Shown piece after piece: positions 3,074 to 40,084 of a DNA stretch of 40,084 bases (its first letter is position 1; each line of letters begins with the position of its first letter). The notes beneath the pieces are model-generated. The model made no database searches. It was given only the letters and a program-made list of their open reading frames with translations, and had not been told where the DNA came from. The position numbers and the translations under genes are program-made. The DNA comes from a virus. The stretch lies in IMG/VR virus record IMGVR_UViG_3300025009_000235, positions 1 through 40,084 of that record; one strand, given 5' to 3'.

Positions 3074-4201
3074 TCAGATTTGTTCGCGGATCCGCTGCCT
3101 ATCAAGTGAGGTCTGTTTGACGAAATCTCGCATTTTGGCTTGATATTCTGCCACTTTATTTAGCGCATTGACTGCCTCGACTGAATACCCCTGACCCGCG
3201 GCATTGAGCGCCTCATAACGCCTTTTCCAATTTCGGATTTGGCGCTCGTATTTTCTCTGAATCTGCAGTGCCTCGTACACGGTCATTTCCTTGCCCTGGT
3301 AGGTTACGGTCTCATTGGCATAATCATCCAAAACTGCCTGGTCGTATACGTTTTGAGATAGACCTTCAAAGAATGGGTACATGCTGTGACGGCAGTTATA
3401 TCCCCCGAGACCTTCGCCTGTGCCTAGTCCGGTTGTCGCAAAAAGCGGCTTATATTTGGCACTCGTGCCACTAATTGAGTAGACTTGACCCTGCCAACTC
3501 TCATGGTTCATTGGACCTTCGCCCTTGTTACGGGCACCAATATGAGCACTCACAGACATCAAATCAGTCCCCATTTCCTCGGCTCTTTTGAGTTGTAACT
3601 GCATAGCCGTGTTAGAAACTCCGGTTAGTACCGCGCGCCTTACGGCTGTTTCCATAAAGTCAACCCGGTTCGCATAACTGACCGCGCTAATACCTTTATC
3701 CGCTAAGTTGGTTACAGCCTGGCGAATAGCTTGATCGTATGAAAACGCGCCTGTTATCACTTCCTGATATGCAGTGTCCACAACATCAATAAACAGATTC
3801 TGCACATCCATCGCCGTAGTGCGAGTAAGGTTCCTCAAGATTCCATTAGTTTTTTGAAGCCCAATTTGAAACACTTCTGCCATCGCAGGTGATACTTGTT
3901 TTGGGTTTAAGCCAGCTAATTTATATAGTTTGTTGTCAAATTCAATGGATTGCACGCCGGCTTTTTTAAAGAGGGTTTTTAGTTCTATTTCGCTCAGACC
4001 CGTTAGTTTTGATATTCTCTCAATTGCAGCATCGTAAGCTAATCCGCTTTGTTGAAGCCTGTTTAATTGCCATGCTGCCGTATCAGTAACCTTACCCATT
4101 TTTACAAGTCTGCGAATAATATCCAAAATTACCGCATCTTCAAAGTCGCGGTAAAGTTTGATGATTGGCTCCATCAAAACATCAAGTTGATCAAGCAGCA
4201 C
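3074..4201 (-). CDS. Minor head protein (phage minor capsid protein 2 type)
   Basis: This 375-residue protein sits between portal and scaffold, where the minor head (SPP1 gp7-like) protein is expected. The N-terminus (LYRDFEDAVILDIIRRLVKMGKVTDTAAWQLNRL, here cited in pieces) matches the LY..LE..I..DI.RR..K.G..TDTA.WQ pattern of that family. The C-terminal half has the GHNCRH-like motif as GGYNCRHSMYPFF near residue 275, typical of the family. The start is GTG 4201 with GGAGG nine bases upstream, inside the end of the homing endonuclease gene, so the two genes overlap by 11 bp. It probably binds the portal vertex inside the capsid. Confidence 0.85.
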   Translation of the reverse strand: MLLDQLDVLMEPIIKLYRDFEDAVILDIIRRLVKMGKVTDTAAWQLNRLQQSGLAYDAAIERISKLTGLSEIELKTLFKKAGVQSIEFDNKLYKLAGLNPKQVSPAMAEVFQIGLQKTNGILRNLTRTTAMDVQNLFIDVVDTAYQEVITGAFSYDQAIRQAVTNLADKGISAVSYANRVDFMETAVRRAVLTGVSNTAMQLQLKRAEEMGTDLMSVSAHIGARNKGEGPMNHESWQGQVYSISGTSAKYKPLFATTGLGTGEGLGGYNCRHSMYPFFEGLSQNVYDQAVLDDYANETVTYQGKEMTVYEALQIQRKYERQIRNWKRRYEALNAAGQGYSVEAVNALNKVAEYQAKMRDFVKQTSLDRQRIREQI

Positions 4202-4961
4202 TTCGCTTTTCCTCCCAATACCTTTTTTTAGATTCTGACATATGACGCTTCGCCTCTTCCGAATGCTTTTTTCCAGTTCTGGTTAGTGACATCTTTACTC
4301 TTGTTTCTTCAGAGGCTTGATATAACCCACGTTTACCTTTATTCCATGGGTCGCGCCCTATTGTTCGTTTATTTCCTAAAAGTGATTTACTTATTTTTGT
4401 TTTCGTTTCTTCAGACAACTTATAGCCCATTTTGTGTACGCGGTTCTTACTAGACTCGCTCATTTTTCTGCGTGATTCTTCAGAAAATATTCTTCCAGTA
4501 CTGTTTTTAGCCATTACTATTTTTGCTTCTTCTGATCGTATTTTCCCTTTATTTGATTGACCTATTCTTCGTTTATGTTCTTCGGAAAAAACACGCCCTT
4601 TTCCAGCTTCACTTACTTTTTTCCTTGTTTCAAGTGAATGTTTTACTCCAAGTGGACTTCCGGCGGTAAGAGAGATGTTGTACGACGGGTGAACCGCATT
4701 TATGTGGTTTTGTTCTTTTGAAATTAACAAGTCTTTATCGCAATATTCAATCACGGAAAACACAAAGTTTTTTTCTCCGTATTTGTTCCAAGCTCTTTGT
4801 AAATATTGAGAGTGATGTTTCCCTTTTTGTAAGTCTCTAAGGTGTTCGTTTCTTCTTTTGTTTAAATTCAAACTACTGCCAATATACCTATGACCATTCA
4901 AGGTATTGACGATTTCATAGACGCCGGAATTTAAATTGTTTTTAGGTTGGGGTATAATCAT
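4191..4961 (-). CDS. GIY-YIG homing endonuclease with NUMOD3 repeats
   Basis: The 256-residue protein has a GIY-YIG nuclease domain in its first 90 residues: GVYEIVN, HRYIGSS, a basic RRNEHL motif with the catalytic Arg, a Glu in SKEQNHI and a closing Asn in PSYNISL. After it come several copies of a NUMOD3-like DNA-binding motif (SEEHKRRIGQSNKGK, SEEAK, SEESRRKMSES, SEETKTKIS). The start is ATG 4961 rather than 5036, because the extra 25 codons cover a promoter-like box and a hairpin, and GAGG lies ahead of 4961. It is free-standing, not in an intron: there is no space for a group I core and both neighbours are intact. It would cut an allele lacking the insertion and spread itself. Confidence 0.88.
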   Translation of the reverse strand: MIIPQPKNNLNSGVYEIVNTLNGHRYIGSSLNLNKRRNEHLRDLQKGKHHSQYLQRAWNKYGEKNFVFSVIEYCDKDLLISKEQNHINAVHPSYNISLTAGSPLGVKHSLETRKKVSEAGKGRVFSEEHKRRIGQSNKGKIRSEEAKIVMAKNSTGRIFSEESRRKMSESSKNRVHKMGYKLSEETKTKISKSLLGNKRTIGRDPWNKGKRGLYQASEETRVKMSLTRTGKKHSEEAKRHMSESKKRYWEEKRSAA

Positions 4962-4991
4962 GTCGTTGAGCGCCTCGAACGCTTGACCATT

Positions 4992-5030
4992 GAGCCGGAC
5001 GGTTATCCCCGTCGCGGCTCTCTTATTATA
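4992..5030 (-). promoter_or_regulatory. TATAAT box and bulged hairpin leading homing endonuclease gene 1
   Basis: On the minus strand a perfect TATAAT (5030-5025) is followed after 4 nt by a hairpin. The outer stem is 5020-5015 with 4997-4992 (GAGCCG/CGGCTC), there is a single unpaired C at 5014, the inner stem is 5013-5009 with 5002-4998 (GACGG/CCGTC), and the loop has six bases. Exactly 15 nt separate the hairpin from GAGG (4976-4973). No good -35 box is seen. The layout repeats at 33551-33601 ahead of the second endonuclease gene. Confidence 0.65.
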
Positions 5031-5035
5031 CTTCA

Positions 5036-6463
5036 TTACGCTCCTTCAAACATGTTTTCTTTTTCGTCCTGGGTAGCTTGCTCACTGTCAATTTCAGCGA
5101 TTTTCTTTTTCGCAGTGGCTTCATCTTCGCCATAGTTGCGCATCCTGAATTCCACGCGCCCCATGATCCTTTGCCCCACCACTCGCAGATCCTGCTGGAA
5201 TTGAGCATCTTTATCAACAACGACACTGTCATCGTATCCAAAGACAGCGGAGTATTTCCCGGGTGTTTCAAGCCTATTGAGCGTTGCCCACACATCCATT
5301 GCGTACACGAGTTGGTTCAAGCAGGTTGTGAGAGCGTTCTGCATGCCCTTCACAGTGGCATAGGTGCGCTGCTTACTGATCTTTATCTCGGTCGCGGTCT
5401 TACTCTCGACCTGTGGGTCTGAAATGGTGCCATAAGCCAGTCCGCAGTTGTATTCAATCTTTTTCAGAATGGCATCCAGCCCGGAAAGAATTGACGCCTC
5501 TCGGAATTCTGGACTGAATTCGTGGAAGAATCCATCCTCTCCAATGGATTGTGAGGAGTTACTCAGCGCCCGGTACAGCCTCTTGTCCGGGAGAATCGGT
5601 TTGCCTTCATCGTCACGGTCGTATGCCAGCACATCAGCGAAAATAGCGCGCTTGCCTGATTCGAACTCCCACAACAGATCTGACCACAGCGTGTCAGCCT
5701 GTTTGATCAAGTCCACGGCGCGCGCGTAGCAGCTCACACCAAGCGGACTGGTAGGATCAACGTTGTTAGCTTGGGGAAAACGATAATAACCGTAAAGAGG
5801 TGCCTTTACCTTGATGATCGCTGCCTCTGGCTTCAATGATGCCCAGGGTTCGAATTCGGTCAACGGGATCTCACGTCCAATGTCAGAGGTGGAGTTCGCC
5901 TTAAACGCAATGTTCTTGATCGTGACCATTTCTTTTGTGGAATCAAAAACGTGCCACTCCAACCTGGTGAAATACTCTTTCCCCTGCACACGTTGATCAA
6001 CAAAGATACAGGAGGTGACGTTTCCATTCGCATCAAAAGCCACTGGCATAAACTGGTCAGCCTGGACGAAATCGACATCGATCTCTTTGCCATTGGGGAA
6101 CGGCTTCATGATCAACCCGCCTTTGGCATTGCCATACTCAACCATCTGCCTGAGTTTTGACAACACCTTATCTGCTTGAGATTGCAGATACACTGCCCGG
6201 GTTGAATCGCCTTCGATCTTCACCGACATCTCAATGGTTACGAGGTTGGCCAACTCACCAGCGATCGAGGCGGGTAAGTTCATCGACTTTACGTACTGAT
6301 TCAGCCACGATGCCTGGTTCTTGTACATGAGCGACCACGTTTCAAGAGCTGCGCTCATTTCCGACGATATCGCTACATCCACGCTCAATTTACTCTTAAC
6401 AGTCTCACTTGATAACATTTTCCACACTCCCTTTATCCAATTTATTACCTGGTCAAATATCAT
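5036..6463 (-). CDS. Portal protein (SPP1 gp6 / A118 type)
   Basis: This 475-residue protein forms the dodecameric DNA gate at the capsid vertex, contacting terminase during packaging and the connector later. The family pattern is clear: a short N-terminal region, WSLMYKNQASWL, a wing/clip region with GGLIMKPFPNGKEIDVDFVQADQF, the PLGVSCYARAVDLIKQAD helix, and a C-terminal stem helix with KTATEIK and acidic tail. It starts at ATG 6463, overlapping the integrase gene by 11 bp, with GAGG upstream. It ends TAATG, where the downstream gene probably once began before the homing endonuclease gene entered. Confidence 0.9.
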   Translation of the reverse strand: MIFDQVINWIKGVWKMLSSETVKSKLSVDVAISSEMSAALETWSLMYKNQASWLNQYVKSMNLPASIAGELANLVTIEMSVKIEGDSTRAVYLQSQADKVLSKLRQMVEYGNAKGGLIMKPFPNGKEIDVDFVQADQFMPVAFDANGNVTSCIFVDQRVQGKEYFTRLEWHVFDSTKEMVTIKNIAFKANSTSDIGREIPLTEFEPWASLKPEAAIIKVKAPLYGYYRFPQANNVDPTSPLGVSCYARAVDLIKQADTLWSDLLWEFESGKRAIFADVLAYDRDDEGKPILPDKRLYRALSNSSQSIGEDGFFHEFSPEFREASILSGLDAILKKIEYNCGLAYGTISDPQVESKTATEIKISKQRTYATVKGMQNALTTCLNQLVYAMDVWATLNRLETPGKYSAVFGYDDSVVVDKDAQFQQDLRVVGQRIMGRVEFRMRNYGEDEATAKKKIAEIDSEQATQDEKENMFEGA

Positions 6464-7484
6464 GGACTACCTCACTCTTCAGATATTCTTTCATTGCATC
6501 CAGCTCTTTCCACTCGCGGTCCTTGCTGGTGAGGTCGTTATAGATCTTATACATCTCACTCGATTTCCATCCCATCAGCTCAACGATCAGATCGCTCGGC
6601 AGTCCCATCCGGGTGAGAAACGTCACCGTGTAATGCCTGAAGGCGTGAGCGTATACATTCACACCTAAAAACGTTTCCCATTCCGGGATCCAGTTACGAA
6701 TTGTCGATGTGGTTGCTGGTACACCATCGTGCCTGATAAACAGGTAGTTATGCGATTGGCCTGTTTGGCGCAGGATCTCTTCCCGCTCGGCCATCCAGGA
6801 CGCGTAATACTTTTCAAAAATTGATTTGATGATGTATTTGTATTTCAAATCCCCGCTTTTTGTTCTGCCTTTGGTCTTGATCATTTCCGTGGTCTCGATG
6901 AAAACGCCGGAGTAAACCAGGTTATTCATGTCGATGATATCCGTCCGGAACCGGATCAGCTCGCTGGCTCTCGCGCCGCTTGCAACAGCCAACGCCACCA
7001 GGCAGGCTTCCTGTTCTCGGTTGGTGTCCATCAGGTGCTGCAGTAATTGGTTCACCTGGTTCTCCGAGAGGATCGTCTTCTCCCTGGCGGCGCTCAATGG
7101 CATGGTTTCAATGACCTTCAGTATTGCATTCCGAAAAGAGGGATACATATCATCCAGGTACTTCTCGATGAAATTACTCATGGAAGAGAGGCAGGACCGC
7201 ATCCGGTTGAACCTCGCGGAATTCCACTGCAGCTCATTCACGCAAAAGTTGAAATACTCGGCGAATTCCAGCTTGCGGATATCCACAAAGAACTTATTCT
7301 CCAGGTGATCAAGAACATAGACAAAGAAAATATTCAGATCTGACCGGTATCCATCCACGGTTCCTGTTGCGGACCGGATATCCTTTTCACGCAAAAAACT
7401 TTCCATCAAGCTGATATTCTGCGGATTGATCCTCGCCATTTTTTCTGGAGTCGTGGTCACATTTCGGATCGTTACTCTGCTCAT
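6453..7484 (-). CDS. Tyrosine recombinase inside the packaging operon
   Basis: This 343-residue protein has an N-terminal SAM-like DNA-binding domain (residues 20-140) and a catalytic domain with ASGARASELIRF (first Arg), HAFRHYTVTFL (His-x-x-Arg), MGWKSSEMYKIYND (third box, with Trp in place of His, and the nucleophile Tyr). All residues needed for strand exchange seem present. Its ribosome site AAAGGGAAA precedes ATG 7484, and it overlaps portal, so it is co-expressed with late genes. Since the lysogeny region has a large serine recombinase, this enzyme is unlikely to be the main integrase. It may resolve genome dimers, invert or swap neighbouring cassette genes, or be a domesticated XerC/D-like enzyme. 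Those roles are inference. Confidence 0.85.
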   Translation of the reverse strand: MSRVTIRNVTTTPEKMARINPQNISLMESFLREKDIRSATGTVDGYRSDLNIFFVYVLDHLENKFFVDIRKLEFAEYFNFCVNELQWNSARFNRMRSCLSSMSNFIEKYLDDMYPSFRNAILKVIETMPLSAAREKTILSENQVNQLLQHLMDTNREQEACLVALAVASGARASELIRFRTDIIDMNNLVYSGVFIETTEMIKTKGRTKSGDLKYKYIIKSIFEKYYASWMAEREEILRQTGQSHNYLFIRHDGVPATTSTIRNWIPEWETFLGVNVYAHAFRHYTVTFLTRMGLPSDLIVELMGWKSSEMYKIYNDLTSKDREWKELDAMKEYLKSEVVHDI

Positions 7485-24660: not shown

Positions 24661-26253
24661 ATGAACTCCCAGCAACCTTTTTCTCCAGGCTCACAAGTTG
24701 TTGCCTATGTCCGGTACTCGGGCGGGGTGGAGCAGGGGCTCAAGGATAGATCCACCACGGAACAAACTCACGAGATACAACAGTTTTGCGATAAAAACGA
24801 CCTGATCCTGTACCGGGTGTTCGAGGACGCCGGCATTTCCGGAACCTCCACAAAAGGGCGTGATGCCTTTTTCGAGATGATCAACTATCTCAAATCCCGA
24901 CCAAAGCCAGATGTAGCGGGGGTGATCATTTGGTCATTATCCAGATTTGCCAGGGATCTCAACACTGCCCAGCTCTACAAGGCGGATCTGCGCCGGCTTG
25001 GGTACACCATCTTCAGCCTGACTGAACAATTTGAGGATAGCGCGACCGGAATCCTTTTTGAAACTCTCATTGACTGGAAGAACCAGATGTACAGCGAAGA
25101 GACAGGTGCCCATGTTGCCAGGTCATTACATGCAAATTTCGAACAGTTCAAGGTCCTGCCTGGATTGCCCCCACGCGGACTAATGCGAATACCAGTTGAA
25201 TTACCACCCAAAAAAGATGGATCAAAACGGATCGGTCACCGTTGGGAATTGGACCCGGTCACGGCGCCCATGATCCAACGCGCTTTTCAGATGAAAGCGG
25301 ATGGCGCTCATAATTTCGAGATCAAAAAAATATTGCCATTCTACAAAAGCGATGCCTCTCTTTTCGATCTATTCAAGCGCAGGATTTACTACGGCTCCAT
25401 GACCTATGGCGGGATTACCATCGATGATTACTGCCAACCGGCCATAACCAAAACACTTTGGGACCAGGTGCAGGAGGTGTGTATGAAAGAGAAACGTCAA
25501 ACCGCACGAGCTGGCAAGTTCTCCACAGCCAATATCCGCCTGTTATCCGGGTTGCTCATTTGCCCCCAGTGCTCCAGGAAGATGTTCGTCTGCAGGCGCA
25601 CCACAAAAGGGAAGGAATATTCCAGTTACCGCTGCAGCTCATGCTCGGGTCAGACATATCCTTGTGGCAAGGTTGAAGACGCGGTTATGGCTCAGGTCCA
25701 GAGTGAGATCCTGATCGAAAAGAACATTGACATGATGATAGCTCTGTACCGGGAAGAATTGAACGCGACCAAGCCAAAACAGAAAGGTAAGGCGCCTGAC
25801 TATTCCGCTCAACTTGTTACGGTAACGTCAAAAATTGAGAGAGTTGCCGAGGCAATCGCGGAGATGGGTGCCAATGAGCCGCTCCGGAAGAAACTGGAAG
25901 ACTTGCAGATGCAGCAGCAACTTATCCGGGAAAAGCAGAGTGAGCACCTGGCATTCACAGCCACTGGCAATGAAGTGATCAGCAACGCCAAAGAGAATAG
26001 CCTCAGCATCATGGACATAATTAAAGACAAAAACGCGCCGCTCGATATTCAGAGGGACGCGCTGATGCTGTTTATCAAAGAAATCGTGCCTACCAGTAAG
26101 ACAAGTGCTTTGATTCGTTACCATCTACCCGAAGGCAATCTGCCTACCCAGGATTACCCGGCTGGCGGTGGTGGTTGTGCGTCGAACAGTGTGCCTCCAC
26201 ATAGACGCGGTCAATACGCTCAACTTATCACAGAATCGCTGGTTACCTGGTGA
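24661..26253 (+). CDS. Large serine recombinase (phage integrase)
   Basis: This 530-residue protein integrates and excises the phage by recombining attP and attB. The resolvase catalytic domain covers about residues 12-155: YVRYS with the nucleophile Ser20, then IIWSLSRFARDL with conserved Arg residues. A recombinase domain follows (about 165-270), then a zinc ribbon (LLICPQCSRKMFVC, YRCSSC) at about 295-340 and a coiled coil at about 380-430. The last 30 residues are Gly/Pro/Ser-rich and unlike family members, as often happens when attP is near the 3' end. It is placed in the lysogeny region after the repressor, so it is the likely integrase. Confidence 0.9.
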   Translation: MNSQQPFSPGSQVVAYVRYSGGVEQGLKDRSTTEQTHEIQQFCDKNDLILYRVFEDAGISGTSTKGRDAFFEMINYLKSRPKPDVAGVIIWSLSRFARDLNTAQLYKADLRRLGYTIFSLTEQFEDSATGILFETLIDWKNQMYSEETGAHVARSLHANFEQFKVLPGLPPRGLMRIPVELPPKKDGSKRIGHRWELDPVTAPMIQRAFQMKADGAHNFEIKKILPFYKSDASLFDLFKRRIYYGSMTYGGITIDDYCQPAITKTLWDQVQEVCMKEKRQTARAGKFSTANIRLLSGLLICPQCSRKMFVCRRTTKGKEYSSYRCSSCSGQTYPCGKVEDAVMAQVQSEILIEKNIDMMIALYREELNATKPKQKGKAPDYSAQLVTVTSKIERVAEAIAEMGANEPLRKKLEDLQMQQQLIREKQSEHLAFTATGNEVISNAKENSLSIMDIIKDKNAPLDIQRDALMLFIKEIVPTSKTSALIRYHLPEGNLPTQDYPAGGGGCASNSVPPHRRGQYAQLITESLVTW

Positions 26254-30948: not shown

Positions 30949-32313
30949 TCAATATGCTCTAAATCCATTATTCCTGATCAAGTCCGCGCCACTTATCGCT
31001 ATTCCGGTTCTTGCGCGTCTCACTGGATGCTCGACTGGCGGTATATAAACCGGTTCGATCCCTCGAATATCCGTAACCTGTAAATATCCACCTATCAAAT
31101 TCATTTCCATTTTCTGAACAAATCCCAACACTGTCTTGTTGTAGACCGTGTTGGATGAAACTATATCCAATGGTTTGACCGTTGACGGTAATAGCGTAAA
31201 AGTCTGCTTGTATCGTTGGCGATAATAATCCCTTACCCGGTCCAACACGGTCTGAGCATATGCCTCGCTCACCATCGTGGCTTCTGAAATTATCAGGGCG
31301 TTTTTATTGGCATATTCTGTGAGACCTGTTTCGAAAAATAAAAATGACCTTTTACTGTCAATCCACGGATAACCGGTTATTGTGACCTGCCCCGCCTCCT
31401 GCATGACGAGCCTTAACGAGTTGGGGGAATCGAACGTGTATTCCCCGGATACTTCAAGTTCTGCATCGTCTTCAAAAGCAAATATTGCATCGTCTTCAAA
31501 CCCTAAAACAATTGGAGTAAACCCCGGACCGTCAACAACAATATCATAATAAGGCTGATCGAAAATTATCTTGTGTTGGCCTGCTTCCAGATATTTATCG
31601 AATATTGTCCGTATTTCGGTGCCAACAGTGTAGTTATGCGAGACCAGTTCAATGCTCGTAACTACTTTCAACAGTTCAATAGGTTGACTGCTTAGTTTTT
31701 GGGGATCGCTAACTCGCATATCGAATGTTCTATACGGTAGGTTTATCGGTGTAATAATAACCTTATCGCTCCTCGAACACGACGCCACGGCCCCTGCCGC
31801 AAAGCATATTTGCTGCAGAGCGCTACGAAAATCTCCCGGCGGGATCCAGCCCTGGATTGTCACGTCTTTGATGGAATCGTCGACAGAAAAAACAATGCCC
31901 TTAGACAGTAAAACCTGATTTAGCACTATCAATAAAGAAGTGGGCACAGACCAAAAACCGCCGTCGTAATCTGTCTTTGACATGGCTCCTATTGCGTCAA
32001 AAGCCCTAAACTCTAAAGTGTAATCATTCGTGTTTACAAATGTATCCAGATAAAACTTGCCTAAGTAATAAGAGACACCGTCTATGCTCTCGTAGCAGTC
32101 AACTGGCAGTCGCTCAGACAAAACGCAGTCGCTTGAAAATACAGATAAGGCCGGATCGGAGTTATATACCTTTACTTCTAGAACATTGTAGGGCAACTCA
32201 ATACTGATAGGGTTTACTTCTTCCACCAGGGACGCTGAAATTACGTCCTCACCAGAAAAGGTGTAAGACGTTGATCCTACAATTAAAACTATCCTCGGAT
32301 TAGTTATGCTCAT
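30949..32313 (-). CDS. Tail protein (distal tail or baseplate)
   Basis: This 454-residue protein resembles the tail-associated or baseplate hub proteins that follow tape measure and distal tail genes, with beta-rich N-terminal (VLIVGSTSYTFSGEDVISAS) and middle domains (TLEFRAFDAIGAMSKTDYDGG) and a C-terminal VEHPVRRARTGIAISGADL. In siphophages this gene forms the tip that carries fibres. No catalytic motif is seen. Overlap of 4 bp with the upstream gene. Confidence 0.75.
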   Translation of the reverse strand: MSITNPRIVLIVGSTSYTFSGEDVISASLVEEVNPISIELPYNVLEVKVYNSDPALSVFSSDCVLSERLPVDCYESIDGVSYYLGKFYLDTFVNTNDYTLEFRAFDAIGAMSKTDYDGGFWSVPTSLLIVLNQVLLSKGIVFSVDDSIKDVTIQGWIPPGDFRSALQQICFAAGAVASCSRSDKVIITPINLPYRTFDMRVSDPQKLSSQPIELLKVVTSIELVSHNYTVGTEIRTIFDKYLEAGQHKIIFDQPYYDIVVDGPGFTPIVLGFEDDAIFAFEDDAELEVSGEYTFDSPNSLRLVMQEAGQVTITGYPWIDSKRSFLFFETGLTEYANKNALIISEATMVSEAYAQTVLDRVRDYYRQRYKQTFTLLPSTVKPLDIVSSNTVYNKTVLGFVQKMEMNLIGGYLQVTDIRGIEPVYIPPVEHPVRRARTGIAISGADLIRNNGFRAY

Positions 32314-32690
32314 GTGGCCTTTGGAGACTGCGCAATAAAATTGACCGTAATACTAGCCCAGTCAGTTGTTAATGACTTCCATTTTCTTAGCTGTCGTTTT
32401 ACACTCGAAAAATAAGCAATAAAAGTAAATGGCACGCCATCTGAGTCAGGCACCGTAACTGTATGGAATTCCACTGCCTCTGTAAGCTTTGCCCAAAACA
32501 GCGGGTATGCTGTTTTTTCGGATGCGGTCATTGGTCTGCCAATTTTTAGTTGTTGATTATGATATGTACCAATCAACTCCCGATGCAATACGCCATCTGC
32601 GGTCCGCTCTGCGAATTTATCCAGAAAATCACATGATTCTGAAAGTTCAATAATCGGTACGTCGAATTCAGTCCCGTCTATGGTAATCAT
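32310..32690 (-). CDS. Distal tail-type small protein
   Basis: The roughly 126-residue protein starts at ATG 32690 (MITIDGTEFDVPIIELS), overlapping the end of the homing endonuclease gene (ATGA). It has LIGTYHNQQLKIGRP and DGVPFTFIAYFSSVKRQLRKW, as in small baseplate-proximal tail proteins. Before the endonuclease insertion it probably followed tape measure directly. Confidence 0.75.
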   Translation of the reverse strand: MITIDGTEFDVPIIELSESCDFLDKFAERTADGVLHRELIGTYHNQQLKIGRPMTASEKTAYPLFWAKLTEAVEFHTVTVPDSDGVPFTFIAYFSSVKRQLRKWKSLTTDWASITVNFIAQSPKAT

Positions 32691-33523
32691 TTTGCATACC
32701 TCCAAACGAATCCGCCAGCGGCTTTCTTTTTGCCCGTGCGACACGCGGAAATTACTTTCCAATTAGTTCCTGTTGCTAGTCCCGCTTTTTTGGCACTGTC
32801 AAATGTGGCAATATAGACACCATCTTTTGTGAATTGTGATACGGGTTTTTCCCTCAGAAACGCAAGTATCGTTTTGTGTGATTGAGAAACGTTATAAGCT
32901 TTGTTTCTCGCCGGATCTATGTCTTTATTGCCCTGGTCGGCATAACGCCATTGATATCCGCACGCCAATCTTCTTTTTCCCTTGCAACAATCAGAGATGT
33001 GAGAAGCCCTCCCCGTAGCTAACATAACGGCGTTTTGGCTTGGAAACGTTTGAATATATACTCCGCTTTCAGTATATTGATTGACGGGTTCGCTATTCCC
33101 TAGCGATATTCTCTGTTTGGTTGTGTCGCTTCGACGCGTACCATAGAAATTATGCTTTTCGCCCCGTTTCGAAAGACTCATTTTTGATTTAGTTTCGTCC
33201 GAGACTACCTTGTTGGCGTTTCCACCAAGCTCTAAGTTGTATCCGTTGGGTTTTAATGAGTTATATTCTGCAATATATTTGATTTCTAGCATATTTAATT
33301 GATCAATTTGACATACTTCTATAATTTCAAAAGAGAAGTTTTCTACACCATACTTATCAATGGCGTTATGAATAAAATAATTATGCTGTTTGCGTTCCCC
33401 ACTTTTGTGTTCCTTAAAACGTAAATTAATACGCCGGCTCTGTCCTATATAGACCATTCCGTTGATAGTATTCGTAATTTTATAAATACCGCAATTGGGG
33501 GATTGTGTTACAATTTCGTCCAT
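32687..33523 (-). CDS. GIY-YIG homing endonuclease with NUMOD3 and NUMOD1-like repeats
   Basis: The 278-residue protein has a GIY-YIG domain in its first 90 residues: GIYKITN, MVYIGQS, the basic RRINLRFKEH with catalytic Arg, a Glu in EIKYIAEYN and a closing Asn in GYNLELGG. A NUMOD3-like segment (SDETKSKMSLS) follows, then two repeats of NUMOD1 type, with PVNQYTESGVYIQTF and PVSQFTKDGVYIATF, each ending in a Trp-Arg-Tyr-Ala sequence. Start ATG 33523 has a strong GGAGGTG; a longer frame to 33616 would translate the promoter-like and hairpin leader. It is free-standing between tape measure and a tail gene. It shares the leader layout of the other endonuclease gene but little sequence. Confidence 0.9.
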   Translation of the reverse strand: MDEIVTQSPNCGIYKITNTINGMVYIGQSRRINLRFKEHKSGERKQHNYFIHNAIDKYGVENFSFEIIEVCQIDQLNMLEIKYIAEYNSLKPNGYNLELGGNANKVVSDETKSKMSLSKRGEKHNFYGTRRSDTTKQRISLGNSEPVNQYTESGVYIQTFPSQNAVMLATGRASHISDCCKGKRRLACGYQWRYADQGNKDIDPARNKAYNVSQSHKTILAFLREKPVSQFTKDGVYIATFDSAKKAGLATGTNWKVISACRTGKKKAAGGFVWRYAK

Positions 33524-33550
33524 CAGAACACCTCCGCGTGTTTTGGTCAC

Positions 33551-33601
33551 GTACCCGGATGTTTGCGCATCGCGGGTACACTTATTGATAGAGAAATTAT
33601 A
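33551..33601 (-). promoter_or_regulatory. Extended TATAAT box and bulged hairpin leading homing endonuclease gene 2
   Basis: On the minus strand TGGTATAAT (TATAAT at 33601-33596) is an extended -10 box. After 16 nt comes a hairpin: outer stem 33579-33573 with 33557-33551 (GTACCCG/CGGGTAC), one unpaired C at 33572, inner stem 33571-33568 with 33561-33558 (GATG/CATC), and a six-base loop. Exactly 15 nt separate the hairpin from GGAGGTG (33535-33529). The geometry and 15-nt spacing match the leader at 4992-5030. Confidence 0.7.
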
Positions 33602-33612
33602 CCACAAGGCGG

Positions 33613-35517
33613 TCATGATGTAGCGCCTCCAATAATTAAACTTGCACCAATTCTGTCGTTTTCCCGGATTATTTCAGGCCTCAAGACCCTGATCAATTCC
33701 GACATGGATCCGGCAAAGTTGATTGTGACGTTTTGATTATTCTGGTTTGCCGATAATCTTTCGTCAATAATTTCGCGCAATAATCCCTCTGGGGTTTCAA
33801 TATTGCGTTGAGACTTCTGATCCCCAAGCACTGCCAGGAACTTTGAATTCGGAGGTATTACCGCGCCTTTTGCCAGGAGCGGGATCTGAGGAGCTGTAAC
33901 AGTTGAAATTGGTTTCCATCCCGGGAAAACCGATCCCGCTGAGTTCGCGGCACCGATCAGGTTATTGAGTCCGCTTACCGCGCCCCTCAGCATGCCATTG
34001 AGCAGGCCGATAAGCCCATTGATGATCCCCTTCACGAAATTTTTTATACCCGTGAATATGGTCTCGAATTTCGTTTTTACCCAATCCAGTGCAGTTTTGA
34101 ATGCGTCTTTGATTGGATTCGTAACATGTTCTGTGAACCATGCCTTGACCTTGCCCCATATTTCTATAACCTTAGTCCAGGCATCGCCGGCTTTGGTCTT
34201 GATAGAATTCCAGGTTTCGGTAAAGAAGTTTTTAATTGGATCGGTGACATTCGTTTTGAACCACTCCTTGACCTTGCCCCAAATCTCAATTATTTTTTGC
34301 CAGGCTACAATTGCGAAGACTTTTATTTTCTCCCAAAGGTCCGAAAAGAATTGCTTTACATCGATCCATGCCTGTTTGATCCAGGCACCAGCGTCTGCCA
34401 CTGCCTGCTTGATCCAGTTCCAGGTATCGATCGCAGCTTGCTTTATCCAATTCCAGACATTTGTAATAGTATTTCCGGCTGCAACCACGACTGAAAGGAT
34501 CCAGTTCCAGGTATCGATCGCAGCTTGCTTTATCCAATTCCAGACATTTGTAATAGTATTTCCGGCTGCAACCACGACTGAAAGGATCCAGTTCCATGCA
34601 ATTTCTGCATAATACTTGATATCGAACCAGAGATTATCAAAAAACAGATCAATTTCATGGATCCAACCCTTTATTTTTTCAACCGTTTCAAGAATCTTTG
34701 GGTCGATATCCACAGCCTGCATGACTATGTTTCCACCAGCTCCACCGCCCCCGCCTGATTCTTCCTGAGGTTCTTCCATCTGCAGCACATTCAATTGATC
34801 AAATGCTGCCAGGGCACCTTTAGCTGCTTTGGTCATTTTCTCGGTATTTTTCGCTGCTTGTCCCGTAGCATTGGCTGTCCCTTGCGCACTCCCGGAAACA
34901 TACTGCATTACCTGTTTTTGACCAGTGAGAGCTGCAATGAACATCGACACGTAATTTATGGCTTTTACCAGCCAGTTGATCACGGTCATAAGCGCGGGTG
35001 CAATTGCAGTGAGTATTGTCGTGCCCAAAGCCATCATTGACCCCTTAAGGGTATCGAAGGCAGTCTTTAGTTCCAATACCTTGCTGCGATATGCTGAGGT
35101 CACATCCAATGACTTATAAAGGGTATTAGTGAATTTTTGAGCCCATGCGAAAATTGCAATTCCAGCGAGGACAAGGATTGCAACAATTGCGGCGATTGCG
35201 AGCGCAATTCCAACCACTGCCACAACAACGGCGGCGGCTGTGGCGACAACGGTTCCTAAAGCCATTGCTGCCCCCGCTGCACCAGTAATTATTTTCCCAA
35301 ACAGTGCCTTCATCGCAGGAGACAATTTGCTGGAATATTGAACCGCTGTAAGCATTTTTGCGCCTATTTTTGCCACGCCGGTAATATAGGAATCGTAAGT
35401 TTTTATCAGGCTTTTTTGTACTCCAGCCATTGACTTGTTTATTCTTGCCAAGCCTCGATTAAATCCACCGGAATCTATGCTCGTATCGAAGCGGATGCTT
35501 CCGTCATAAGCGCTCAT
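33613..35517 (-). CDS. Tape measure protein
   Basis: This 634-residue protein sets tail length and helps DNA ejection. It has the typical make-up: a charged, helical N-terminus, a hydrophobic stretch of Ala/Val/Ile (about residues 65-130), a long Trp/Ile/Lys-rich repeated helical region (about 290-480, with WNWIKQAA and TWNWI repeats) and a C-terminal part with GMLRGAVSGLNNLIGAANS. Its length is short for this family, predicting a tail of around 95 nm by the usual 0.15 nm per residue; that is only an estimate. It starts at ATG 35517 in an ATGA overlap. A perfect 87-bp duplication lies in the repeat region. Confidence 0.9.
   Translation of the reverse strand: MSAYDGSIRFDTSIDSGGFNRGLARINKSMAGVQKSLIKTYDSYITGVAKIGAKMLTAVQYSSKLSPAMKALFGKIITGAAGAAMALGTVVATAAAVVVAVVGIALAIAAIVAILVLAGIAIFAWAQKFTNTLYKSLDVTSAYRSKVLELKTAFDTLKGSMMALGTTILTAIAPALMTVINWLVKAINYVSMFIAALTGQKQVMQYVSGSAQGTANATGQAAKNTEKMTKAAKGALAAFDQLNVLQMEEPQEESGGGGGAGGNIVMQAVDIDPKILETVEKIKGWIHEIDLFFDNLWFDIKYYAEIAWNWILSVVVAAGNTITNVWNWIKQAAIDTWNWILSVVVAAGNTITNVWNWIKQAAIDTWNWIKQAVADAGAWIKQAWIDVKQFFSDLWEKIKVFAIVAWQKIIEIWGKVKEWFKTNVTDPIKNFFTETWNSIKTKAGDAWTKVIEIWGKVKAWFTEHVTNPIKDAFKTALDWVKTKFETIFTGIKNFVKGIINGLIGLLNGMLRGAVSGLNNLIGAANSAGSVFPGWKPISTVTAPQIPLLAKGAVIPPNSKFLAVLGDQKSQRNIETPEGLLREIIDERLSANQNNQNVTINFAGSMSELIRVLRPEIIRENDRIGASLIIGGATS
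34411..34584. repeat. Two perfect 87-bp tandem repeats in the tape measure gene
   Basis: Bases 34411-34497 and 34498-34584 are the same, and a third partial copy begins at 34585. Each encodes 29 residues with an AAIDTWNWI helix motif. The complete DNA identity points to a recent in-frame duplication that lengthens the tail ruler by 29 residues. Confidence 0.9.
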
Positions 35518-38692: not shown

Positions 38693-39138
38693 TTTGCCCC
38701 CAATTCCCAATGCCTGAGCGCAACAGAACCCATGTCAAATGTGTCGACACTCGTGATCACAAGCACATCATCGTATTTGGCTTTTAGACTCGTTACAGTG
38801 AATGCAGGCACTTCAGCTACCGCAGGCGGGCCTACAACAGCGGGTACTGCGGCGTGGATCTCGTCTGTCACGGTTCCCTTGACAATGACATCCCCATCCT
38901 GCAGCGTCCATTTTCCTGTCTTTGTAGCCAGTGCTTGCCAGGCTTTGGGCTTGAGATAATCTCCCCCAAGAGACATGGGTATGAACACTCTCGCAGTGTT
39001 CGAGGAGAGGGCACCAGTTCTCATGCCATTGGCAGCTTTGCGGTTCTCCCACTGCACAGGTCCAGGAATAACAGTTCTCTGGTACGTTTCCGTGCCAGAG
39101 ATTTTGTTATAGAGGGTCATAGTTGTGTTGGTGATCAT
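38689..39138 (-). CDS. Minor capsid 1-like protein
   Basis: The 149-residue protein has TMTLYNKISGTETYQRTVIPG and WENRKAANG at the N-terminus, and ends SVALRHWELGAK, as in phage minor capsid protein 1. It overlaps both neighbours by 4 bp, consistent with head-tail connector genes made together. Confidence 0.8.
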   Translation of the reverse strand: MITNTTMTLYNKISGTETYQRTVIPGPVQWENRKAANGMRTGALSSNTARVFIPMSLGGDYLKPKAWQALATKTGKWTLQDGDVIVKGTVTDEIHAAVPAVVGPPAVAEVPAFTVTSLKAKYDDVLVITSVDTFDMGSVALRHWELGAK

Positions 39139-39554
39139 GCATCCTCTGAGACTTGACCGCCGTATTCACCACTTGCAAAACCAGTAAAGAGCAAGCCTGT
39201 ATTCCCAAGATAGAGCCTGGCGGCGTTCAACTGCTTCTGCTCATTCGCCAGCATGTTGCGGCTGTTCTTGTTGTAGGTCACCGACCGGCTGCCAGCACTT
39301 TCTGCAGCTACTCCGTCAAGGTTTCCAGCGAGTTCTTCTTCCTGGATCTCCTCAGCGACCGCACATACCGCGTTCTGGATGGCTGTAACAGTTGCTTCGG
39401 GTGTATCGGCTGTGATGATGGCGGCGGCGCGGTTAAAGGTTATGTTGTCGATCACAGCAGAGGCGCGAAGTGCCAGGCGCGCGAAGTCGGCTGAAGCAAT
39501 GGCAGTACCCAGGTACGTGGTACTGTAATACGTGTAGTCTGCGTAAGCTGCCAT
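39135..39554 (-). CDS. Head-tail connector protein (gp6-like adaptor)
   Basis: The 139-residue protein is helical: YADYTYYSTTYLGTAI, FARLALRASAVIDNITF, then AVCAVAEEIQEEELAG. That fits the gp6/gp15-like adaptor that binds the portal. Its place before the minor capsid set agrees. It starts at ATG 39554 after a doubled purine run (GATAAAAGG units) in the short gap to the beta-helix gene. Confidence 0.8.
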   Translation of the reverse strand: MAAYADYTYYSTTYLGTAIASADFARLALRASAVIDNITFNRAAAIITADTPEATVTAIQNAVCAVAEEIQEEELAGNLDGVAAESAGSRSVTYNKNSRNMLANEQKQLNAARLYLGNTGLLFTGFASGEYGGQVSEDA

Positions 39555-39577
39555 TGCTTATATCCCTTTTATCCCTT

Positions 39578-40084
39578 TTATCCAGCTGCAGCGGGAACAG
39601 CCACGGAGCGGCCATCTGGGGCGGTCGTGGCGGTTACAGCACACACGTTCTGCATCCACTCGTCACCGGTGCCAGGCACATAGTTCGAGGTGTCGTACTC
39701 ACCACCCAGGACATTTTCGGTCACGATGTTGTTGTTACCACCGGTCAGATCAATGTACTTGGCAGTAGAGCGTACCTTGCCGAAGATGTTGCCCTTGATG
39801 ATCGCGCTGTTCAGCGGGGAGTCGATGTGGGTGACGTTCCCAAAGTCGGATGTGTCAGCAGGGAAGATGTTGTTGAGGATCTTCCAGTTCAGCGGATTGG
39901 CCACGGCGGTGCTGGTGTTGATGATCGCGGCCGCAGAGAATTGCGACAACTCACAGCCATCAACGGTCACGTTGTAGCAACCACCATTGTCTGCGATAAA
40001 GTTTTGACCAGCCATTCCCCGAACGCCTTCGAACCTGGCATGAGAGGCGTCATATTCAGCCTCACCCGAAAGTGCGTTGCGTTT
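39578..40084 (-). CDS. Beta-helix-like structural protein (C-terminal part; 5' end off window)
   Basis: This is the C-terminal 168 codons plus stop (TAA 39580-39578) of the gene whose N-terminal part is at 1-933. Where they overlap, 164 codons, the proteins are identical even though 18 bases differ. The protein ends VAVPAAAG. The repeated Asn/Gly turns of a beta-helix are clear (NNIF, GNIF, ENVLGG). Either the two pieces are one gene cut by linearisation of a circle, or they belong to two near-identical tandem genes. Confidence 0.8.
   Translation of the reverse strand, partial: KRNALSGEAEYDASHARFEGVRGMAGQNFIADNGGCYNVTVDGCELSQFSAAAIINTSTAVANPLNWKILNNIFPADTSDFGNVTHIDSPLNSAIIKGNIFGKVRSTAKYIDLTGGNNNIVTENVLGGEYDTSNYVPGTGDEWMQNVCAVTATTAPDGRSVAVPAAAG
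39593..40084. repeat. Right copy of 492-bp terminal repeat
   Basis: Aligns end to end with 1-492, differing at 18 third-position or synonymous sites. See the left copy for the list of changes. If the circle is closed here, the genome length is 39,592 bp. Confidence 0.9.

Follow-up and report, generated by a model that had tools for sequence, protein, structure and literature searches.

Here we show that the leaders of two GIY-YIG endonuclease genes in a 40,084-nt stretch of viral DNA (the window, by which the whole of that stretch is meant) belong to a large, widespread and undescribed family of two-hairpin elements that is absent from Rfam 15. The structure of these leaders is established by covariation, they are members of inserts, and they are associated with nuclease genes. 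The leader probably acts as a mobile 5' regulatory RNA, conserved and noncoding, that restrains translation initiation, with its first hairpin as the recognition element; promoter activity, repression and a binding partner are what we infer.

RNA control of homing endonucleases is known mainly from relatives of T4, case by case. If one homologous, covarying leader spans nucleases of unrelated folds, the control module is itself mobile, and the leader becomes a marker with which such genes can be found and their starts corrected; in some annotated phages it lies upstream of the annotated start or within an annotated ORF. It also poses a testable question, namely what reads a bulged-C hairpin across Arthrobacter, Streptomyces and enterobacteria.

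Two leaders in the window

Leader 1 (4953-5024) and leader 2 (33515-33582), both on the minus strand, were read directly for their parts. They precede two genes assigned by Pfam to GIY-YIG/NUMOD3 endonucleases, gene 1 (4191-4961, minus) and gene 2 (32687-33523, minus), whose proteins are 32-34% identical. Leader 1 has a TATAAT sequence resembling a -10 box (5025-5030, minus), close to the left boundary of the insert, then hairpin H1 (4992-5020, minus; GAGCCG-C-GACGG GGATAA CCGTC-CGGCTC), 15 nt, GAGG and the ATG at 4961-4959; in a relative (L008) the conserved leader begins at the G preceding TATAAT. Leader 2 repeats this order, with TATAAT at 33597-33602 (minus), H1 at 33551-33579 (minus; GTACCCG-C-GATG CGCAAA CATC-CGGGTAC), 15 nt, GGAGG and the ATG at 33523-33521. 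Each H1 has a single bulged C, is identified by sequence, folding, a bulge scan and the covariance model R1 described below, and ranks among the most stable one-base-bulged hairpins in a scan of the whole window.

An earlier note, made from the sequence alone, had pointed to these common parts (TATAAT, bulged-C hairpin, ribosome site and ATG) and to outer stems that differ yet still pair. Direct reading bears out both observations, and the folds are better than those of shuffled sequences (z-scores of -3.5 for leader 1 and -3.0 for leader 2). The motif CCGCGAYG..CRTCCGG occurs at two places in the window, both of them the leaders, and in none of 100 dinucleotide shuffles, a post hoc comparison in that the motif was picked after being seen. 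R1 retrieves leader 1 with 58.3 bits (E 1e-14) and leader 2 with 43.1 bits (E 1.8e-10), and its search of the whole window gave no convincing third copy. The 15-nt spacing, taken to be fixed in the note, is common to the two window copies and is not fixed in the wider family.

The stretch from hairpin to ATG had been regarded as a plain spacer; it is instead a second covarying hairpin, H2. In leader 1, R1 alignment, family covariation and folding place H2 at 4959-4991 (minus), where it holds GAGG (4973-4976) and the start codon. In leader 2 the R1 alignment places it at 33521-33550 (minus), with an AACAC/GTGTT stem, GGAGG (33531-33535) in the loop and upper stem, and its end at the ATG. The claim that the element sits upstream of, and not over, the ribosome site is false for the leader as a whole, because the Shine-Dalgarno sequence (SD) lies within H2, which extends to the last base ahead of the start codon.

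A covarying family of two-hairpin leaders

A scan of viral contigs with the pattern TATAAT..CCGCGAYG..CRTCCGG matched 37 stretches, nearly all with an identical order of parts. A second pattern, which dropped TATAAT and required a conserved TGRCC after the hairpin, matched at least 119 stretches in viral contigs and at least 119 in bacterial genomes, some of these being chance matches in GC-rich coding DNA. Filtering for an outer stem and for a start codon with an SD gave 132 distinct leaders. R1 was built from 82 aligned leaders (about 100 relatives) and, run over 100 chosen loci, returned 105 matches at E <= 0.01; retrieval by pattern is biased towards the CCG/CGG core of H1, the E-values of the model are rough, and the metagenome contigs are fragmentary. 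Covarying copies are numerous in front of genes of the HNH, GIY-YIG and endonuclease VII types. No Rfam 15 family matches the window or its relatives, the only hits being two tRNAs in one locus, and no description of the leader was found in the open-access literature searched.

The leaders share a purine-rich 5' end, H1 with its bulged C, and an abutting H2 that starts where H1 ends and extends to the base preceding the start codon. Among the 82 leaders, pair changes on both sides were counted in 269 cells, compared with 98.7 in shuffled alignments and 28-70 in controls with slid partners, and when mutual information was computed for all column pairs with no structure supplied, the top ranks were all H1 or H2 pairs. 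The pair formed by the R of TGRCC and the Y before the start codon is G-C in 45 leaders, A-U in 44 and G-U in one, with non-pairs in 3 of 93. The AUG bases face a conserved CRU; since the facing bases are nearly invariant on both sides, pairing of the AUG is consistent with the alignment and not proven by covariation. In copies of the window leader 2 type, where ATG directly follows GA, the register is shifted and the U of AUG faces the R. The SD is mostly AGGAG or GGAGG, and lies in the H2 loop or the upper 3' arm.

Of 104 members 103 have the bulged C of H1, and a C.A mismatch close to the H2 base occurs in 86 of 103; it should be borne in mind that the search pattern itself included the bulged C and that the fixity of the CCG/CGG core is partly an effect of that pattern. 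HNH relatives fetched by protein alone have the leader directly at the start codon, with compensated changes in the H1 core (GAGTC/GACTC and GGCGG/CCGCC, for example) and the bulged C kept; in Gordonia phage Archis the core is CGG/CCG. Fold predictions give H1 in all copies tested, whereas H2 competes with other folds in some and is, taken alone, only marginally stable in several members.

Two other readings of the leader sequence were tried and rejected. Its length modulo 3 is not conserved across 128 leaders and in-frame openness is only slightly raised, so it is read as noncoding and not as coding sequence; a comparison for mimicry of rRNA matched nothing in the E. coli rrnB operon. In the two leaders of the window the reading frame stays open from the interrupted gene's start. 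In both cassettes the host gene's start codon (window 33614-33616; L330:3591-3593) continues in frame across the leader and on into the endonuclease gene, from which an N-terminally extended endonuclease could, judging from these frames, result. Common to phages, Streptomyces and ColpVC plasmids is a weak conserved element that follows the ATG at a near-fixed distance (about N6-9, then TAYC or ATAACA).

Inserted cassettes and genomic neighbours

Occupied sites in the window and in L330, which is from the same contig as L008, were compared with the loci L331-L340. Cassette 1 interrupts the minor capsid protein 2 gene (3074-4201, minus; Pfam), and in L330/L008 it lies about 22 nt inside the original 5' end of that gene. 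In the empty relative L331 the gene starts with ATGCTCACTGCCAACTTTCTTGACC, while L330 reads ATGCTCACTGCCAACTTCCTTG, then TGAGGTATAATAAGAG followed by H1, H2 and gene 1; by the same comparison, the 3' end of the cassette supplies the capsid gene with a new RBS and a GTG start. The window copy of cassette 1 has since lost its left flank up to the promoter. Cassette 2 interrupts a tail gene (32310-32690, minus) a few bases past its original ATG, and ends by giving the next gene a new GGAGG and ATG from the 3' end of gene 2; in six relatives the tape measure gene is followed directly by the tail gene, with neither gene 2 nor leader. The third case is a pair of Gordonia phages, Archis with the cassette and Malachai without it, in which the left edge falls about 10 nt before H1 and a promoter-like TTGACA lies in the flank, outside the cassette.

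Across these comparisons the leader is missing from empty sites and present together with the nuclease gene. It is inside the insert in all three cases examined, and the -10 box is inside in two of the three. Comparison of the sequences shows the leader to be part of the nuclease cassette that was inserted, and places it at the left edge. More widely, TANAAT occurs in 16 of 53 viral leaders that had not been selected for it, against 1.7 expected, and almost always 20-25 nt before H1. A -10 box inside the cassette may provide promoter activity, in which case H1 would lie near the transcript 5' end.

About 58 of 71 downstream genes in viral contigs encode nucleases of unrelated folds (HNH, GIY-YIG, endonuclease VII and AP2/NUMOD forms), an approximate count that combines Pfam and PHROGs tallies with a per-protein check of 20 unclear cases, 13 of them nucleases, and inspection of the rest by eye. 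The other viral neighbours include BRO, integrase, methyltransferase and clamp-loader-like ATPase genes, as well as a TnpB-like gene whose leader is doubtful; no consistent metabolic gene, such as might point to a metabolite-binding riboswitch, follows the leaders. Annotated phages of Arthrobacter, Gordonia and Mycobacterium have the leader at HNH or GIY-YIG genes, and a Rhodococcus plasmid has it before an HNH gene. When HNH relatives were retrieved regardless of leader, 6 of 31 had one, including all five closest. The leader is absent from all 79 relatives of the L054 GIY-YIG gene and, beyond the phage group to which gene 1 belongs, from the relatives of that gene, which excludes GIY-YIG homology alone as its source; as most GIY-YIG relatives are without it, these genes do not require it.

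Leaders are also found away from nucleases. Three Streptomyces genomes have 10, 5 and 7 copies before small proteins to which neither Pfam nor NCBIfam gives a family name, and XRE/DUF5753 regulator genes are among the neighbours of these small genes. ColpVC plasmids of enterobacteria have one leader upstream of rep (E about 5e-12), in which the bulged C is retained and base pairs are altered. The idea of a travelling cassette, put forward in the earlier note, therefore stands in that the leader moves with endonuclease genes, as covarying copies and empty sites indicate, and fails as an endonuclease-only association, given the Streptomyces small genes, ColpVC and a minority of phage genes. Evenly drawn genomes have the leader in 4 of 50 Actinomycetota, counting the S. 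scabiei centre, and in 2 of 51 Chloroflexota, again with the centre counted, a rarity on which a general bacterial element was rejected.

Several details of these loci can be recorded here. In L008, the portal gene and cassette 1 are separated by a gene of 95 aa and by the opening bases of minor capsid gene 2 (L008:3304-3591, corresponding to window 5035/5036); the window phage is without both, exactly up to TATAAT. In Streptomyces and Nocardiopsis chromosomes (L185-L303, L307, L309, L310, L316, L317, L319) the leader occurs in several copies, preceding small proteins that have a VRPYL-like C-terminal motif, and some of these copies are close to XRE/DUF5753 regulator genes. ColpVC leaders from Salmonella, E. 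coli and Klebsiella include L352:1499-1588 and, in plasmid pB (L351), one around the record start. In pB the leader is followed by a 21-codon frame overlapping the rep start, a possible leader peptide coupled to rep.

Proposed control of translation initiation and its alternatives

In T4-type homing endonuclease genes (I-TevI/II/III, segB, Aeh1 mobE) a hairpin at the ribosome site limits or times translation, and T4 late promoters are placed so that late transcripts are without the inhibitory structure (PMC2988022). The present leaders resemble these in enclosing within a hairpin the ribosome site from which a phage homing endonuclease is translated; here H2 covaries around the SD and as far as the base that precedes AUG. 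They differ in forming one homologous family with a conserved bulged-C hairpin across unrelated nucleases, and in having TATAAT upstream of both hairpins, so that transcripts from the box would contain them and the T4 scheme does not apply. The T4 ribosome-site hairpins, which are non-homologous, are the nearest known system. A further case, seg43(25) of Aeromonas phage 25, has a stable hairpin immediately ahead of its ribosome site (PMC2988022); compared by description, it is alike in having a hairpin near a homing endonuclease ribosome site and unlike in being a single case with the ribosome site free. Hidden HNH genes of the ShiLan type, homing endonucleases that have entered a phage gene and are expressed from that internal position (PMC11855218), share the insertion of HNH into a phage gene, whereas a ribosome-site or leader hairpin is not reported there.

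The SAS/ESAS elements of cluster K mycobacteriophages are repeated at gene starts, with the SD between short inverted arms (GGGATAGGAGCCC) (Pope 2011, PMC3203893). Half of these sites have an upstream inverted repeat, and departures in the ESAS arms do not, according to the authors, favour RNA pairing (PMC3203893). Unlike the present leader, they are not tied to endonucleases; and where they place the 13-bp GGGATAGGAGCCC at the gene start, the SD and the H2 arms of the present leaders change from copy to copy in covarying fashion, with no fixed 13-mer. With R1 the best hit in TM4 is not significant (14.1 bits, E 0.029), and membership of SAS/ESAS was rejected. The weak TM4 match (L324:32397-32464) is a start-associated site before gp45, with CCCCCGC..GCGGGGG and then CTGGCCGAC; it may have arisen by chance or reflect a remote relation between the two types of element.

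In phages the leader belongs to homing-endonuclease cassettes, entering together with the nuclease gene, and has become joined to nuclease genes of unrelated folds. In the mechanism that we propose, a -10 box of its own, often present, would put H1 near the transcript 5' end; H2 would limit access of ribosomes to the start site, and the abutting H1 would be recognised by a host or phage factor, or would fix the fold. The DNA-cutting enzyme might then be produced only sparingly, or only at certain times, whichever site the cassette enters. Control at initiation fits a mobile unit that inserts into other operons and carries the gene for such an enzyme. Strong repression is not assured, because of the marginal stability of H2 alone in several members, and where H2 competes with other folds a factor or the passage of ribosomes may decide. 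Part of the SD lies in the H2 loop, a position that could expose it to ribosomes instead of masking it.

This last arrangement fits an explanation that needs no regulator, in which H1 stabilises the mRNA at its 5' end and H2 presents the ribosome site, giving a context-independent boost to expression. The position of H1 near the predicted transcript 5' end, the many members with an SD in the loop and the -10 box contained in the cassette are all consistent with it; such a device, however, need conserve neither the bulged C nor the C.A mismatch at the base of H2, and we regard it as unlikely. The fixity of these two features suggests recognition, and leader-blind matches also keep the bulged C. 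That the structure works as DNA or in homing, as a recombination edge, target or protein-binding site, is very improbable: it does mark the left edge of the insertions, but it has a single orientation, ends at a start codon with the SD in H2, covaries up to the base adjoining the ATG, and occurs in multiple Streptomyces copies before small genes. A chance likeness of the two window leaders, or their recent duplication within the window phage, would account for there being only two copies in the window, and is refuted by the wider family, homologous leaders being present in unrelated phages; the outer stems, moreover, differ and still pair, and the divergence of the two proteins also argues against it. 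We give it practically no credence.

Beyond restraint of initiation, the leader might represent a new class of riboregulator, in which a factor common to distant bacteria reads the bulged-C hairpin and which phage homing endonucleases, ColpVC replication control and Streptomyces genes have adopted as a portable switch that keeps genes low; this extension is tentative.

Other features of the window were also noted. Its ends (1-500 and 38890-40084) are similar and hold related ORFs (134-352 and 39690-39977), as a repeat or terminal redundancy; the tape measure gene contains a tandem repeat of about 87-99 bp (34411-34509, 34498-34596), and the phage has tyrosine integrase and serine recombinase genes (6453-7484 and 24661-26253).
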